DNA of 28,012 nt. It comes from a virus. The notes below the pieces were generated by a model that saw only the letters and a list, made by a program, of their open reading frames with translations, had not been told where the DNA came from and did not search any database. Position 1 is the stretch's first letter; the number at the start of each line of letters is the position of its first letter. The stretch is from positions 1-28,012 of the IMG/VR virus record IMGVR_UViG_3300007346_000162, one strand, 5' to 3'. Below are positions 2,105 through 26,135 of the stretch, piece after piece. The translations under genes and the position numbers were made by a program.

Positions 2105-2410
2105 ATGTTAAGCGAGAACCAACTACAATCCAAACTCGATACAACAATACAAGCATATGAGAGCATCTTTGGTGAAAAACCAACAAATGAGCAGTTGCTA
2201 GACGTATTGAATACAGCCATTGCTAAGCGACAAGAAGAAGTGCTGACATCGAGACTAACCGACCAACGAGCAGATAGAGATTTGTTAGGACTACGGGCTT
2301 TGCTTGCAGCAAAGTCTGAGGCTCCTAAACCGGAAAAGAAAGTGAAGGCTAAGAAGTCTCAGAAAGCTGAGTTCGTACCTAACGCATCTTTATATGCCGA
2401 AAATAAATAA
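2105..2410 (+). CDS. hypothetical protein upstream of the small terminase
   Basis: The product is 101 residues. It starts 7 nt after the holin-like stop, with GGAG 6 nt before the ATG. The first 70 residues look helical and charged, with no membrane segment. The C-terminus is Lys/Ala-rich (APKPEKKVKAKKSQKAE), so it may bind nucleic acid or be disordered. It overlaps the TerS frame by 17 nt. I do not recognise the family; its position suggests a packaging-associated accessory protein. Confidence 0.6.
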   Translation: MLSENQLQSKLDTTIQAYESIFGEKPTNEQLLDVLNTAIAKRQEEVLTSRLTDQRADRDLLGLRALLAAKSEAPKPEKKVKAKKSQKAEFVPNASLYAENK

Positions 2411-3086
2411 AGACAAAGAGAGGAAAAGCCCAGGCAAGCTGCCAACCACTCAACTGTTGTATTTAGACCAAGAGATAAATAAGCACATGACCGCTAACTA
2501 CATGCCCGAGGTTAAGGATAAGGCGATGGCTTTGTACTTACTCGGGCACGACGTATCTGCTATTGCCGAGCGTATGGGCATGGAATCACGCATTATCCAT
2601 AGTTGGGTAGATACTGGTAAGTGGACAGCAAAACGTGCAGAAATCTTCAAGAAAGCATATCAACAAAGTTGGGGTCAGATTGGTAACAATGCAGCAATTG
2701 CGCAGAATGTGGCGCAAGCTTTGTTCAATGACCAGATACAGAAGAAGATGGCTAAGGACGAAGAGCTGACGTGGGATGAGCTTAAGAAACTTTCAGACAT
2801 GATTGTTTCGATGCAGAAGGTTAGTCGTACTGAGGATGGTAAGCCAACTGAGATAACTCAGACGCTGACTATTCGTGAGCAACGTGCTCAAATCCGTATG
2901 ATATTGAAGGAAGACCCGTTTCAGGAGTTTGCTGATGTTATAGAACACGCAAGCATGAAACAATTAGGGCATAAAAATGTCGGACACGAAATTAGCACCG
3001 CTGGAACTAGCACAGAGGATTCAAAAACTGAATGCAAAGTGGAATCCTCATCCGGGGCAGCTGAAAGCCGGGAGAGCGATTTTTAA
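2394..3086 (+). CDS. terS: terminase small subunit (DNA recognition)
   Basis: The product is 230 residues. Residues about 39-76 form a helix-turn-helix-like segment (KDKAMALYLLGHDVSAIAERMG, then IIHSWVDTGKW), matching the phage small-terminase or transposase-like HTH pattern. The middle is helical and likely mediates oligomerisation. The C-terminal 37 residues are low-complexity Ser/Glu/Thr-rich and are encoded in the region shared with the next gene. It lies directly upstream of TerL, the usual order, and would recognise the packaging site and recruit the large subunit. The ATG at 2394 lacks a clear Shine-Dalgarno and overlaps the previous gene by 17 nt, so translational coupling or a later start (for example the Met at residue 32) is possible. 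The 110-nt overlap with TerL is unusually long. Confidence 0.75.
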   Translation: MPKINKDKERKSPGKLPTTQLLYLDQEINKHMTANYMPEVKDKAMALYLLGHDVSAIAERMGMESRIIHSWVDTGKWTAKRAEIFKKAYQQSWGQIGNNAAIAQNVAQALFNDQIQKKMAKDEELTWDELKKLSDMIVSMQKVSRTEDGKPTEITQTLTIREQRAQIRMILKEDPFQEFADVIEHASMKQLGHKNVGHEISTAGTSTEDSKTECKVESSSGAAESRESDF

Positions 3087-4431
3087 GGACAAGAAGAAGC
3101 GACTCTTCATACGTGCTGGTCGGAAATTCGGTAAGACTGAGCTATGCATGTACATTGCATGGCGGATAGCCCTCACCACAGACAATCCTCAAGTATACAT
3201 CATTGGTCCTTCTCAAAAGCAGCAGAAGGAAATCATGTGGCAGAATGGTCGGCTTAAGCAGTTCGGACCAGAAGAGTATGTAGACCAGATAATGGATTCT
3301 GAACTACGTATCAAACTAAACGGTGGGTTTATTAAGGTCGATGGTTCTGAAAACTACGAAGCCTATCGAGGGACCGAGTATCACGCCATGATACTTGATG
3401 AGATGAAAGACCAAGACCCTCGGTTCTATGACGCTGCTTATCCTAACCTGCGTTCTCTAAACGGCGTTCTAATCTGCATTGGTACTCCTCCTGACCACCC
3501 AGACAACTTCTATGTGCAGTTATTAAATGACATTAAGAACGATGAAGACTGGGCACATATCCATGGTACGGCGTGGGAAAACCCGTTCGTAGCAGGAATT
3601 GAGGACAAGGAAGAGGCTCATAAGTGGCTAAGTACTGAGAAAAAGAAGTATTACGAGCGAGGCGACAAGGAGCGTTGGCTACGAGAATATGAAGCAGAGC
3701 TGGCTTTTGGAGGTCGTAGCCGAGTTATTCCTAACATCTCTCGTAGTGAGCATATGAAGCCAGACTTCCATGTTCAGCAGTTACTTGAGAACCATCAGGG
3801 CAAACTTGAGTACTTCATTATGCTCGACCCTGGTACTACGACCTGCTTTGCTGGGTTGTTTGCAGCTATTGACCCATATAGCAGCCAAATTTTTATTCTC
3901 GACGAAATATACGAGAAAGACCAATATAAGACGAGTACCGACCATATATTTCCTACGGTTGTAAGCAAAGCTAAGCACTTTCATGCGCGTGAGGGTGCTT
4001 GGCGCATATTTTATGACGATGCGGCTGCATGGTTCGGGAACGAAGTCTTGAGTCGATATGGGGTTTATTGTCAGCCAGCAGGAAAATATGCTGCGGACAA
4101 AGAGCTTGGCATCAGCATGTTGAAAGACGTGGCTCGGGTCAAGAATCTCCTTACCATAAGCGACCGATGCGAAAACCTGATGTGGGAGATAGAAAACTAC
4201 GTCAGAGACGAAAACGGAAGGATACCGAAGAAGAATGACCACCTACTCGACTGCTTCAGATATTTGTTGACATGCAGTAGGTATGAGATAAATGAAGACG
4301 TTGCGCCGGAGCCAGAAGAGAAGAGAAGATATGTCACACTCGAGCAAGACATAAGAGCATGGCGACAACAGAGCGATATCATGTTTGGGAAAGAAATTAA
4401 CATATTTGATGATTCGGAGTTTGACTGGTGA
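2977..4431 (+). CDS. terL: terminase large subunit (packaging ATPase and nuclease)
   Basis: The product is 484 residues, a normal length for the family. The ATPase half shows an adenine-site-like KWNPHPGQLKAG (21-32), a Walker A variant AGRKFGKT (47-54) and a Walker B ending in Asp141-Glu142 (HAMILDEM). The RNase H-like nuclease half shows Asp284 (FIMLDPGTT), Asp347/348 (FYDDAAAW) and the C-terminal acidic site Asp421/Asp425 (KNDHLLDCFRYLL). It pumps DNA into the prohead through the portal and cuts the concatemer. The start is supported by the family-like N-terminus, which continues in frame through the region shared with TerS. The stop overlaps the next GTG start by 4 nt (GTGA). Confidence 0.95.
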   Translation: MSDTKLAPLELAQRIQKLNAKWNPHPGQLKAGRAIFKDKKKRLFIRAGRKFGKTELCMYIAWRIALTTDNPQVYIIGPSQKQQKEIMWQNGRLKQFGPEEYVDQIMDSELRIKLNGGFIKVDGSENYEAYRGTEYHAMILDEMKDQDPRFYDAAYPNLRSLNGVLICIGTPPDHPDNFYVQLLNDIKNDEDWAHIHGTAWENPFVAGIEDKEEAHKWLSTEKKKYYERGDKERWLREYEAELAFGGRSRVIPNISRSEHMKPDFHVQQLLENHQGKLEYFIMLDPGTTTCFAGLFAAIDPYSSQIFILDEIYEKDQYKTSTDHIFPTVVSKAKHFHAREGAWRIFYDDAAAWFGNEVLSRYGVYCQPAGKYAADKELGISMLKDVARVKNLLTISDRCENLMWEIENYVRDENGRIPKKNDHLLDCFRYLLTCSRYEINEDVAPEPEEKRRYVTLEQDIRAWRQQSDIMFGKEINIFDDSEFDW

Positions 4432-18197: not shown

Positions 18198-19448
18198 ATG
18201 GCACAATTAACAGAAGAGCAAAGAGCGCAGATAAGAGCACTTCGAGCAGCTGAAGGTAAAGATGCAGCGAGGGCGATGCGCTTTAAAATGAGAACACAAG
18301 CAGGTTTACCAACTAATCCTGCTAATGTTCCTTCGGGAGTTAAGCAGGTTGTTCAGCAAACCCCTGAAGAGTTGGCGAGGATTAGAGAAGCTAGAAACAC
18401 TCCAGATGCAAATGGAATTAGTAATCAAATTGGCTATCGCGACGCGCAGTCACAAGGTCTTTCGCCGTTCATTCAGGAGACTCCATCTGCGCCAGCAGCT
18501 CCTCCTCCAGCAGCTCCTCCTGCACCTGCAGCCAATCCTAATCGACTAAGCCCTGAGCAAAGAGCACAGATAGCAGCACTGCGAGCATCGGAGGGTCAAG
18601 ATGCTGCGAAGGCTCTACGTTTTCAATTAAGAACGGAAGCAGGGTTACCGACTAATCCTGCTAATGCTCCTGTCCCTCCTCCTGCAGATACCGTCCCTCC
18701 TCCTGCAGACACTGCTCCGGCTGAAGACAAGCCTGTGACATTTGGTCCACGGATTAGCAAGCGTCTAGACAAGATGTTTGGTCTTGGTCAGGAGATGGTA
18801 GACAAGTTCTTACCGGACATCTCCGTACTAGGAACCGTAGACGCGTCTCGTAGTGCTCAGATGCAAGAAGCCATGGCACAAGCACAAGCAGGGCTAGGAG
18901 GACTCTCAGCAGCCGAGAATGAGGCTTTAAGAGCTAGAGGGTACGAGGAGCTTAACCGTCAGTTTATGGGCGGTCAGAGGGCACTAGGAAGGCTACAAGC
19001 GCGTTCTGGAGTACAAGGTGCAGCTGCTACAGCTCAGTTTGGGGATTTGATGAGACAAAGAGCTCAGCAGGCTGCTGGGATGGAGCAGGACCTCATGCTC
19101 AGGAACATAGCGGTACAAGACCAGCGTAGACAAGCATTCCAGAACCTTCTTAGAACAGCAGAGCAGGATGAGCTTGCAAGACAGCAGTTCAACATTGGTC
19201 AGCAAGCTAATCTCCTTAGTGGACAGCAGGCGCTCTTCTTTGGTGGTGCTGGGCTTGGTAATCAGCTTATGGAGCAAATGCGTCAGAGACGTATGGAGCG
19301 AGAGCAAATGGAGGCTATTAGGCAAGGGCAGTTGGCTCAACAAGCAGCTTGGCAGCAAGCTCAGAACGACATCTTGAATATATCTGGCGGCACAGGTCCT
19401 GGTTTGGATATGGGTCCTAATGAGCCTCAAGCTAATCCTAATGCGTAG
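18198..19448 (+). CDS. Gln/Ala-rich helical protein with duplicated module (ejection-protein candidate)
   Basis: The product is 416 residues. A 42-residue module occurs twice, at residues 4-45 and 117-158, sharing EQRAQI(R/A)ALRA.EG.DAA and RT.AGLPTNPAN. A Pro/Ala-rich linker with a 7-residue tandem repeat (PPPADTV-type) follows the second copy. From about residue 220 the protein is a long Gln/Arg/Ala-rich helix (RQAFQNLLRTAEQDELARQQF, then GQQALFFGGAGLGNQLMEQM). This length and composition fit an internal virion (ejection) protein such as P22 gp7 or T7 gp14 analogues. It is the first of three large helical products before the lysozyme. A weak GG/GAG site precedes the ATG. Confidence 0.6.
   Translation: MAQLTEEQRAQIRALRAAEGKDAARAMRFKMRTQAGLPTNPANVPSGVKQVVQQTPEELARIREARNTPDANGISNQIGYRDAQSQGLSPFIQETPSAPAAPPPAAPPAPAANPNRLSPEQRAQIAALRASEGQDAAKALRFQLRTEAGLPTNPANAPVPPPADTVPPPADTAPAEDKPVTFGPRISKRLDKMFGLGQEMVDKFLPDISVLGTVDASRSAQMQEAMAQAQAGLGGLSAAENEALRARGYEELNRQFMGGQRALGRLQARSGVQGAAATAQFGDLMRQRAQQAAGMEQDLMLRNIAVQDQRRQAFQNLLRTAEQDELARQQFNIGQQANLLSGQQALFFGGAGLGNQLMEQMRQRRMEREQMEAIRQGQLAQQAAWQQAQNDILNISGGTGPGLDMGPNEPQANPNA
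18207..18671 (+). repeat. two 126-bp intragenic direct repeats (18207-18332 and 18546-18671)
   Basis: The copies start 339 nt apart, in the same frame, and encode the duplicated 42-residue module. The DNA has diverged mainly at third positions, while the encoded EQRAQI and AGLPTNPAN are kept. This indicates an old duplication maintained by selection on the protein. Confidence 0.75.
18672..18713 (+). repeat. 2 x 21-bp tandem repeat in a proline-rich linker
   Basis: GTCCCTCCTCCTGCAGA recurs at 18672 and 18693. It encodes two VPPPAD units between the module copy and the helical region of the 416-residue protein. Confidence 0.7.
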
Positions 19449-19469: not shown

Positions 19470-20828
19470 ATGGCTAAAGAAGACGAAGACGAAAAGAAGA
19501 AGGAAGAAGAGATGGCAGCCGAGGAAGCTGCTGCTGAAGCTCCTGCAGAGGAAGTTGCTACGGAGGAAGCTCCTGCTGAAGCTCCTGCTGAGGATGGCGG
19601 TGAGCCTGGTGAAGAGCAGACCGTTGGTTCTTCTTTGCGTGATGATGGCAGCGCACCAAAGTTCGAGCCTAGTGCTGAAGGTAGGCGCATGGTCGAAGAG
19701 CTTTTGACAGGCTCTGGTCCTAGTGAAGTGCAGCAGATAATTAACGACTTAGCAGACAAGATAAACACCGAACGCAAGGACATTAGAGACCTTGCTGAGC
19801 AGGCTCCGAAAGCTCCCGACCTTGCTGACCTCGTCGTTGCATTACTGCCAGTGGCACTAGGTGCTGCAGTAGGAGGCAAGCGTGGCGCTCTTGCTGGTGG
19901 AGTTGGTGGACTCGAAGGCATGGTTAAAAGCCGAGACAAGAGACAGGAGAGAATTGCTAAGGAAATAGAAAGCAAAGAAAAGTATGCTCGAACCCTAGAG
20001 GGCAGACTTACTAGTCTTCAGGGGCAAGTTGCTATTGCGTTGGAGAACCGGGTGGGCACTCTTCCGCAAGGGGTATTGGAGCAAATGGCAGGCTACACCA
20101 CGTCTGCAGTGACCACACAACAAACCTTGGACTTCTTGAATAAATTTTTCCCAGACGAAGAAAGTTTAGGGGGGTACGTCAATCGTCTTAAAGACCAATA
20201 TTTAGGCACCAAATTAAACAATGCTCAAATATTAAGTAACCTGCGTAGTAATCTTAGATTAGCGCAACAAGCAGGAATTAAAGGTGTTCCTAGTAAGCAA
20301 GACCAGGAGCTTATCGATGAAGTTCTTCGCGGTGGTAAAATTACCTTTGCCAAAATACAGAACCTCAAAAATGCGCTAGAAAACTCCGTACGTAGGCTAA
20401 TTATGGAGGCAAATGTTACGGGCGAGTCTTATAGGAAGTTTGCTAGTGGCGAAAAGCTGACGACGGAGTATGTCCAAGACATGGCTGCAAGAAGCCCCGT
20501 ACCAGGAGCAGAAGAAAGGAAGGAAGAAGAGCCGACCAAGAAAGGCGAGCCAACAAGTCCTACTATTGGAACAATAACTCAGGAGCTGACTGCAAATGGA
20601 ACCCCACAGGGGTTTTTAGTCGTGCCAATGAGAGATGACAAGCTAGGGCAGCGTATCGGAAAAGTGCCGTTTAGTATGCCGTGGGTACAAAAGTTCTTAA
20701 GTGATTCTCGAAACATGAATGCAGCAAAAAATTTCAATAACCTATCACAAAGAGAACAGGTTGAATATTTACAGCGGTTAGAAAAAGCCTTGGCAGATTA
20801 TGCTAAGACAGTACAAATTCAAGAATAA
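19470..20828 (+). CDS. acidic-headed virion protein with Gly-rich membrane segment (ejection candidate)
   Basis: The product is 452 residues. Residues 1-50 are almost only Glu, Ala, Lys and Pro (repeats of EEAPAEAPAE type). Residues about 115-150 are a hydrophobic Gly/Ala stretch (VVALLPVALGAAVGGKRGALAGGVGG) that could insert in a membrane. A charged coiled-coil region follows. The last part is helical with a GERK-poor, mixed sequence. It lies between two other large helical proteins. In P22 the gp7, gp20 and gp16 ejection proteins are clustered the same way, so an ejection role is the best inference. No clear Shine-Dalgarno precedes the ATG at 19470. Confidence 0.6.
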   Translation: MAKEDEDEKKKEEEMAAEEAAAEAPAEEVATEEAPAEAPAEDGGEPGEEQTVGSSLRDDGSAPKFEPSAEGRRMVEELLTGSGPSEVQQIINDLADKINTERKDIRDLAEQAPKAPDLADLVVALLPVALGAAVGGKRGALAGGVGGLEGMVKSRDKRQERIAKEIESKEKYARTLEGRLTSLQGQVAIALENRVGTLPQGVLEQMAGYTTSAVTTQQTLDFLNKFFPDEESLGGYVNRLKDQYLGTKLNNAQILSNLRSNLRLAQQAGIKGVPSKQDQELIDEVLRGGKITFAKIQNLKNALENSVRRLIMEANVTGESYRKFASGEKLTTEYVQDMAARSPVPGAEERKEEEPTKKGEPTSPTIGTITQELTANGTPQGFLVVPMRDDKLGQRIGKVPFSMPWVQKFLSDSRNMNAAKNFNNLSQREQVEYLQRLEKALADYAKTVQIQE

Positions 20829-25358: not shown

Positions 25359-25628
25359 CTAAAACACGAGCCAACCGACGGCTCGCACAATGCCATAGTA
25401 TAGGTAGGCTTGTGCTTTCAGCAATGAAGAATTCTTGTGAGACGCTGTTTTGAGCATATGCTGCAGGAACAACTGGTCTACTTGGTATCTGTTGAGGTTA
25501 CCGGGATTCTCGTAGAGATTGTCGTGCAGGACGCAAGAAGAGGTTAGAGGGTCTACCTTGCTGAACAGTCCGTATATCCAGTCTGTGCTTGCCCAGAGGT
25601 ATCCACAACGTAATTTAGTATCTTTCAT
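25359..25628 (-). CDS. phospholipase-A2/DUF1353-like small protein
   Basis: The product is 89 residues from ATG 25628 (the frame also has an earlier ATG at 25679, but it lies in repeat DNA). The central part reads DPLTSSCVLHDNLY, then NRYQVDQLFLQHML: a C-x-x-H-D-x-x-Y motif followed by D-x-x-F. This matches the catalytic helix of PLA2-like proteins and the HD..Y...D..F pattern of phage DUF1353 proteins, in which His-Asp is the active pair. The C-terminus is helical and hydrophobic (LLKAQAYLYYGIVRAVGWLVF) and may contact the membrane. The start is one nt after the stop of the repeat-peptide gene (TGATATG), so translation is probably coupled. The activity is not proven. Confidence 0.6.
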   Translation of the reverse strand: MKDTKLRCGYLWASTDWIYGLFSKVDPLTSSCVLHDNLYENPGNLNRYQVDQLFLQHMLKTASHKNSSLLKAQAYLYYGIVRAVGWLVF

Positions 25629-25629
25629 A

Positions 25630-25911
25630 TCACCACGACTTCGACTCCGACTTAGACTTCGACCTCGACCACGCCCCAAACCCCGACCACGCCCCAGACC
25701 ACGACCACGCCCCCGACTCCGACTTAGACTTCGACCTCGACCACGCCCCAGACCCCGACCACGCCCCAGACCACGACCACGCCCCCGACTGCGCCCTAGA
25801 CCACGACCGCGACCACGCCCTGAACCACGACCCCGACCTCAAAGACACTTCCAACCCTTTTCTCAGTATTGCTGCTGTCATATTTGTTCTCTGGGCAAAG
25901 CGTGATTCCAT
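25630..25911 (-). CDS. Trp/Ser/Gly-rich repeat peptide, possible membrane-active protein
   Basis: The open frame has 93 codons, ATG 25911 to TGA 25630-25632. A normal-looking N-terminus (MESRFAQRTNMTAAILRKG) runs into units such as SGAWSWSGAW and SRSKSKSE. The 24-residue unit appears twice, following the 72-bp DNA repeat, and the copies differ by one residue (Ser or Phe). The product is rich in Trp, Ser, Gly, Arg and Lys, a composition seen in membrane-active peptides. No good Shine-Dalgarno precedes the ATG, but the frame overlaps the upstream gene by 34 nt and its stop lies 1 nt before the next ATG, as in a coupled operon. The repeat has no stops in any frame, so the frame could be accidental. 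I rate it uncertain. Confidence 0.4.
   Translation of the reverse strand: MESRFAQRTNMTAAILRKGLEVSLRSGSWFRAWSRSWSRAQSGAWSWSGAWSGSGAWSRSKSKSESGAWSWSGAWSGFGAWSRSKSKSESKSW
25642..25840. repeat. 72-bp tandem repeat built of 6-bp units (G-tract rich on the - strand)
   Basis: Copies at 25642-25713 and 25714-25785 match at 71 of 72 positions; a degenerate third part runs to about 25840. Each unit is twelve hexamers of the CGACCN/CGCCCC kind. Every unit contains four C-runs of four or five on the + strand (first copy: 25674-25677, 25681-25684, 25692-25695, 25710-25714), separated by 3, 7 and 14 nt. The leftward strand could therefore form a G-quadruplex. The tract is much more GC-rich than the flanking genes. 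Confidence 0.85.
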
Positions 25912-26135
25912 TCAAAGATGTCTACCACCGCACCTAAAGAGACTAGAACAAGCCCTTCCACTGGCTCTACCTCCGACAACTTGCCAGTCTTTAGCGCATC
26001 GCTGAATCTTCCAGTGTCAGCTACCCAAGCTGCGTCTCTTAATACGAGGAACTTATCGTCTACCTCTACCAGCCTTCCGGTGTGGTACATTGTTACAGTG
26101 CGAATGAATAATTTTCTACCAATCATGTCTTCCAT
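25878..26135 (-). CDS. conserved small phage protein (MIGxxxxIRTVTxxxTGR family)
   Basis: The product is 85 residues. It contains GRKLFIRTVTMYHTGRLVEV, FLVLRDAAWVADTGRF and GAVVDIFEWNHALPREQI. I recognise this pattern as a widely spread small phage protein, beta-rich and of unknown role. It has AGGAGG 9 nt before the ATG and starts within the end of the upstream coiled-coil gene (20-nt overlap). A second ATG three codons in (MIGRK) is a possible start and matches the usual family start. It probably belongs to the early DNA-metabolism transcription unit. Confidence 0.7.
   Translation of the reverse strand: MEDMIGRKLFIRTVTMYHTGRLVEVDDKFLVLRDAAWVADTGRFSDALKTGKLSEVEPVEGLVLVSLGAVVDIFEWNHALPREQI

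Follow-up and report, generated by a model that had tools for sequence, protein, structure and literature searches.

The window analysed here, 28,012 nucleotides of viral DNA, carries towards its right end a 72-bp tandem repeat, which raises the question of whether the repeat acts as DNA or is there for what it encodes. The initial annotation had proposed a G-quadruplex roadblock, an iteron array or a recently expanded coding repeat. Our comparison with related phages supports the last of these: the tract encodes a low-complexity protein, hereafter SX, in which Ser alternates with Trp, Arg or Gly. Its ORF appears to be coupled to a predicted Sm-fold gene lying upstream, and its arrays are hypervariable.

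As a piece of DNA, the repeat behaves largely as first described. TRF reports a period of 72 with 2.7 copies and a score of 312, the highest within the window. Two copies agree at 71 of 72 positions, compared with 37/72 for the best lag-72 self-match among 200 base shuffles, and a third, degenerate copy (from 25786) agrees at 48-49 of 72. Each unit consists, as had been noted, of twelve hexamers. The limits first given, 25642-25840, are corrected to approximately 25636-25839 for the hexamer tract. It is indeed far richer in GC than its neighbours (0.69 versus 0.465 and 0.485 in the flanks). On the minus strand every unit reads G5-N14-G4-N7-G4-N3-G4, so that the four announced G4/G5 runs are present, with the spacers of 3, 7 and 14 nt in the opposite order (14, 7, 3). 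The description of the tract as stop-free is correct for the SX and GR frames (minus strand) and for the PR and D frames (plus strand), but stops occur in the V frame of the minus strand and in the T frame of the plus strand. Further short tandem repeats are found in the window at 18492-18712 and 19520-19594, within long rightward ORFs.

The tract makes up most of the 83-residue SX ORF on the minus strand (Table 1). In the window every second residue of SX is Ser or Ala, with W, R, G, K or E in between; this array has diverged from the canonical form, with Ala, Lys and Glu at some places and few canonical units. The sole mismatch between copies 1 and 2 is nonsynonymous: read in the coding frame, it gives Gly-Phe in one copy and Gly-Ser in the other. 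Ahead of the array, the N-terminus follows the family consensus M-N-A-A-[IV]-L-R-x-G-[FY]-D-x-S. Judged from composition and not with a predictor, SX is probably disordered. Its TGA lies 2 nt ahead of the ATG of a DUF1353-like gene.

Table 1. Features of the repeat ORF and of its upstream partner gene, in window positions
Feature	Position	Strand	Basis or remark
SX repeat protein ORF, 83 aa	25630..25881	-	MTAAILRKGLEVSLRSGSWFRAWSRSWSRAQSGAWSWSG...SKSESKSW, pI 11.9
72-bp repeat copy 1	25642..25713	-	24 codons of the SX ORF
72-bp repeat copy 2	25714..25785	-	71/72 identity to copy 1
Third, degenerate portion of the hexamer tract	25786..25839	-	Closest to the SX N-terminus
Non-repeat SX N-terminus MTAAILRKGLEVSL	25840..25881	-	Column counts across SX starts
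ATGA overlap, SX start codon on the stop of the Sm-like gene	25878..25881	-	Putative translational coupling
Predicted Sm/LSm-fold protein gene, 85 aa, SX partner	25878..26135	-	AlphaFold2 model, Foldseek, VIA, viral homologues

We also considered whether the DUF1353-like protein owns the repeat, through a GR-frame extension (25359-25679). This was rejected: in that frame a stop precedes the tract and no start codon occurs until 25679, PHROG 6098, a short relative, starts past the tract, and in the related phage L004 the gene has no repeat. The small protein itself (25359-25628) matches DUF1353 in Pfam at E 7e-4 and a PHROG tail assembly chaperone at 6e-7, and its gene belongs to the early genes read leftward, at a distance from those for structural proteins; used as a query in the first viral scan, it found no relative.

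We then examined the 85-aa product of the gene whose stop overlaps the SX start. AlphaFold2, given an alignment of 85 sequences, returned a model with a pLDDT of 97.4 and a pTM of 0.87, in which an N-terminal helix is combined with a strongly bent five-stranded sheet, that is the Sm-fold arrangement. The top 50 Foldseek entries from the PDB are all Sm/LSm proteins or contain Sm/LSm chains, and VIA superpositions on such structures give Z scores of 9.1-10.2 with an rmsd of 1.1-3.1 across 59-73 residues. The partner is thus confidently predicted to adopt an Sm/LSm fold. Its sequence profile has no match in the PDB up to E 10, so the assignment stands on the predicted structure; a sequence-level match was not found in Pfam either. 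With positions placed by eye, the Sm2 motif (Arg-Gly in loop 5) has R at 67 in 43 of the 85 members and G at 68 in 44, the window partner having Leu-Gly there; the Sm1 Asn of loop 3 seems to be missing, its expected place being taken by hydrophobic residues. A DAAWIADTGRF segment is conserved after strand 3. A plasmid search found no partner homologues, and none of 198 ORFs is an Sm-SX fusion. That the tract is a coding repeat and has an Sm-fold partner appears to us highly probable.

The pair recurs in many phages. Two scans of IMG/VR returned at least 135 and at least 28 relatives of the partner, and an SX ORF, scored as an in-frame Ser-X tract, lies downstream in 89 of the 108 loci analysed, a set which is partly redundant and in which the repeats are where metagenome assemblies break. 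Four of the 19 loci without a tract are truncated by contig ends, and some (L089 and others) have degenerate tracts below the detection threshold. In a partner-blind pattern scan the partner was found upstream of 41 of the 57 (TCGNGG)5 tracts lying at least 400 nt from the contig 5' end, among the matches listed; for some SX ORFs, no Sm partner was recognised. SX starts one base before the partner stop (offset -1) in 58 of the 86 loci with an assignable start, and Shine-Dalgarno pairing at SX starts is stronger than at control positions inside the Sm gene (p = 8e-9); that of the window itself is weak (-2.9 kcal/mol).

The closest relatives found first, L004 and L005, have the repeat elsewhere in the cluster, between two SSB-type genes and, in L004, together with the 85-aa gene. 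L004 has two SX ORFs in tandem, and its DUF1353-like gene directly borders the next gene, with no intervening repeat. The case named initially as a refutation, related phages with an ordinary gene and no repeat at this place, thus applies only by half: it holds for the DUF1353-like locus of L004, but the repeat has moved with the Sm-like gene to another site. The Manatee Spring phages MW202825 and MW202573 carry diverged 85-aa homologues followed by SX ORFs overlapping the stop; that of MW202573, annotated as a hypothetical protein, is read here as 43 residues. Translations near the repeat of MW202825.1 contain FPTRRSSDL, which is adapter-like, and the record is flagged UNVERIFIED_CONTAM. Two Nitrospinaceae/Nitrospinota MAGs (L195, L196) have a homologue of the second partner type, and the SX-like ORF that follows it is degenerate. 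The genomes L210, L248, L253 and L271 each contain more than one SX or SX-like array, in some cases behind non-Sm genes, e.g. a polymerase-like ORF in L253. We found no relevant description of the pair or of its repeat peptides in the open full-text literature, and our searches of Pfam, PHROGs and NCBIfam gave no name for the module.

Our main reading, to which we give a probability of roughly 60%, is that SX is translated by coupling from the 4-nt overlap behind the phage Sm-like gene and that the pair is an RNA or ssDNA chaperone or a condensate scaffold. The Sm-like protein would assemble into a nucleic-acid-binding ring, on which the conserved SX N-terminus (about 12 residues) would dock. 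SX would thereby provide a tail in trans, disordered, largely cationic and rich in aromatic residues, in which the stickers are Arg and Trp and the spacers Ser and Gly. This tail would be comparable in role to the RG tails of SmB/D1/D3 and LSm4 or to the disordered C-terminal domain of Hfq, and together the two proteins might chaperone or concentrate RNA or ssDNA early in infection, during replication and recombination. The setting fits a nucleic-acid chaperone: the pair is next to SSB and RuvC-like resolvase genes in the window, and beside polymerase, helicase and exonuclease genes in other genomes. Against the reading count the Sm RNA-binding residues, which are only partly retained, the 19 partner loci without an SX tract and the SX ORFs without a recognised Sm gene, the failure to find an Sm-SX fusion among the 198 ORFs, and the divergence of the window's own array. 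Taken separately, the functional proposal has in our estimation slightly less than an even chance. The arrays would lengthen and shorten by in-frame duplication, the 72-bp copy being one such event.

Among relatives the repeat DNA is written as TCGNGG, AGCNGG, TCTNGG, TCANGG or AGTNGG, with the same encoded pattern. Over all arrays the serine codons are TCG 1114, AGC 323, TCT 262, TCA 118 and AGT 23, the codon being nearly uniform inside each array and different between arrays. On the partner tree, serine-codon classes cluster no more than shuffled labels do; AGY serine needs 9 changes, at least 6 of them forced by supported branches, and the sister partners L105 and L120 are followed by AGC and TCT serine, respectively. 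Since TCN and AGY are not one silent step apart, the same protein pattern has arisen anew, or been exchanged, with other DNA beneath it, and the scatter of serine codons over the tree indicates that conservation concerns the protein pattern and not the DNA. About nine X codons in ten are NGG (G 587, R 577, W 514), and per locus W, R and G are about equally frequent (28, 30 and 31%). Deviations from the locus consensus affect position 1 of the X codon, which decides between W, R and G, in 53% of hexamers, against 3.6% for the silent third position of serine. No clustering of identical X residues was detected (496 observed vs 523 expected). Only about 2% of hexamers, counted across all arrays, vary at serine positions 1-2; as this includes the 12 of 75 arrays using AGC or AGT, the variation does not follow adenine. 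Targets of diversity-generating retroelements vary specifically at adenine, with a template repeat and a reverse transcriptase. The comparison of arrays shows fast turnover, with conservation at the protein rather than the DNA level; the simplest reading would be that silent sites are made uniform by array turnover and that a mixture of W, R and G is maintained by selection.

This concentration of the variation at X would also suit an array serving as a hypervariable decoy or inhibitor against host or phage-phage defence, with the W/R/G order under diversifying selection. In its favour, and as a sign of recent turnover, near-clonal phages carry different arrays: outside the array, 6 kb of L004 and L005 show 99.97% identity, and their arrays, at contig ends where assembly calls for caution, only about 80% with many gaps. 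Moreover, the first 120 nt of the window SX gene are nearly identical to the second copy in L004 (nt 60-120 of the ORF are identical), while the Sm genes are 75.6% identical, which points to an exchanged cassette. However, what seems to be kept is composition and not order, and an Sm-fold partner suggests nucleic acid; we hold the decoy to be unlikely, if the best placed of the alternatives.

A parallel module was found with DUF6948 (PF22253). Viral matches to the window's partner include DUF6948 proteins; the Pfam model matched none of 85 partner members at E <= 0.1, and a profile-profile comparison gave a probability of 6%. DUF6948 is predicted to be Sm-like: the 50 best PDB entries for its predicted structure are all Sm/LSm or have such chains, with middling Z scores of up to 6.9. 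Behind it, a Gly-X ORF is present at all 79 IMG/VR loci scored, among the matches listed, versus 1/1290 for a coupled ORF of alternating Ser or Gly behind unrelated phage ORFs, a control with a somewhat narrower start-search range. Its X residues are S 999, Y 701, D 570, N 179, K 4 and R 3, and the two genes usually overlap by 13 nt (offset -10 in 58/79). Among cultured phages the pair occurs in Iodobacter phage PhiPLPE, Pectobacterium phage Koroua, a Vibrio phage and Chlorobiaceae phage CV-1-33. Only the L095 genome, among the SX-partner genomes searched, has DUF6948 alongside SX. There the order is Sm-like gene, HNH-type ORF, SX, DUF6948 and repeat ORF (about 2250-3371); in this genome (L095/L317) the cationic and the acidic dipeptide polymers stand in a single cluster. 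We found nothing relevant on DUF6948 in the literature. In CV-1-33 (L324), CV133_gene25 (QOE32032.1, 1780-2025) is annotated in an Ala-Met/Leu frame (MAMAMALAMAL...), and the DUF6948-coupled frame reads Gly-[Tyr/Asp/Ser] through the same repeat. At least this one phage gene is thus probably annotated in the wrong repeat frame, and is corrected here.

The acidic arrays bear on a further alternative, which we rate marginally below the decoy: SX as a membrane- or ribosome-active cationic Trp/Arg peptide, acting as toxin, host shut-off factor or lysis factor, with the Sm-like protein as antidote or regulator, as in toxin-antitoxin pairs. Two small, coupled genes would fit such a system, as would the pI of SX near 12, and Arg/Trp-rich peptides are known to be membrane-active. 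But the Gly-[Ser/Tyr/Asp] arrays, almost devoid of Arg and Lys, would not be membrane-lytic, and we noticed, without a predictor, no signal or transmembrane-like N-terminus in SX. As a broader reading of the two modules, to which we give rather less than an even chance, we tentatively suggest that they represent a widespread type of phage operon not described before. It would pair an Sm-fold protein with a coupled, hypervariable and strictly alternating dipeptide polymer, in a cationic or an acidic version, and the products may build RNP condensates or act as RNA chaperones.

Instead of re-initiation, a -1 frameshift at the 3' end of the Sm gene could make an Sm-SX fusion, which we regard as improbable. 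With respect to its Sm gene, SX occupies the -1 frame at 72 of 86 loci, and the DUF6948-coupled ORF, with its 13-nt overlap, mostly has the same relative frame; however, the -1 frame is dictated anyway by a 4-nt overlap, 14 of the 86 SX starts are in other frames, and SX starts carry a Shine-Dalgarno signal.

A DNA-level role as G-quadruplex, iteron or roadblock, suggested by the four G4/G5 runs of each unit, is very improbable for a tract that is inside an ORF: strict G3+ motifs with loops of 1-7 nt occur in 11 of 75 homologous arrays against about 14 from hexamer shuffles and nowhere in the window, the looser four-G4 pattern is limited to 18 of 49 TCG-serine arrays (0 of 26 others), and, against iterons, the repeat DNA varies between relatives while the encoded pattern is constant. 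Just as improbable is a product of the antisense PR/LR frame (25519-25905, plus strand) or of the GR frame: both are open across the tract, but the former is not conserved and was rejected, and the latter has a TGA just upstream, no ATG, GTG or TTG until 25679, and reads GL, AG, HG/QG or VG in relatives depending on the serine codon.

What looked like a DNA curiosity has thus led to a two-gene module found in very many phages. Sm-SX pairs are simple test objects for phage use of Sm proteins, for selection on low-complexity proteins whose composition is kept while the DNA turns over, and for the question of whether phages make condensates with dedicated polymers.

In eukaryotes, SmB, SmD1, SmD3 and LSm4 have low-complexity RG-rich tails. 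The phage partner shares with the Sm/LSm superfamily (SmAP, LSm1-8, SmB/D1/D3) the predicted fold of an N-terminal helix and five strands; unlike these proteins it has its low-complexity part in a separate coupled gene with strict dipeptide alternation, carries the DAAWIADTGRF segment, and keeps the RNA-binding residues only partly. A parallel in gene arrangement, a predicted Sm-like protein and then a coupled alternating-dipeptide ORF, is given by the DUF6948 phage proteins, whose repeat is Gly-[Ser/Tyr/Asp] instead of Ser-[Trp/Arg/Gly] and which, in contrast to the window's partner, have a matching Pfam model. Bacterial Hfq likewise combines an Sm core with a low-complexity region, a disordered C-terminal domain that tunes RNA annealing (PMC5606850) and that has Gly-rich repeats in A. 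baumannii (PMC11617691). The Hfq domain is fused and acidic or Gly-rich, whereas phage SX is separate and hypervariable, and we found no sequence match of the partner to Hfq. Finally, Sm proteins of Borgs have N-terminal in-frame tandem repeats that are fast-evolving and predicted to be disordered (PMC9879509), and thus also associate an Sm protein of a mobile element with quickly evolving repeats. The Borg repeats belong to archaeal elements and are N-terminally fused, with units of 4-17 aa, whereas SX is encoded by a separate gene, with units of 2 aa, in tailed phages.
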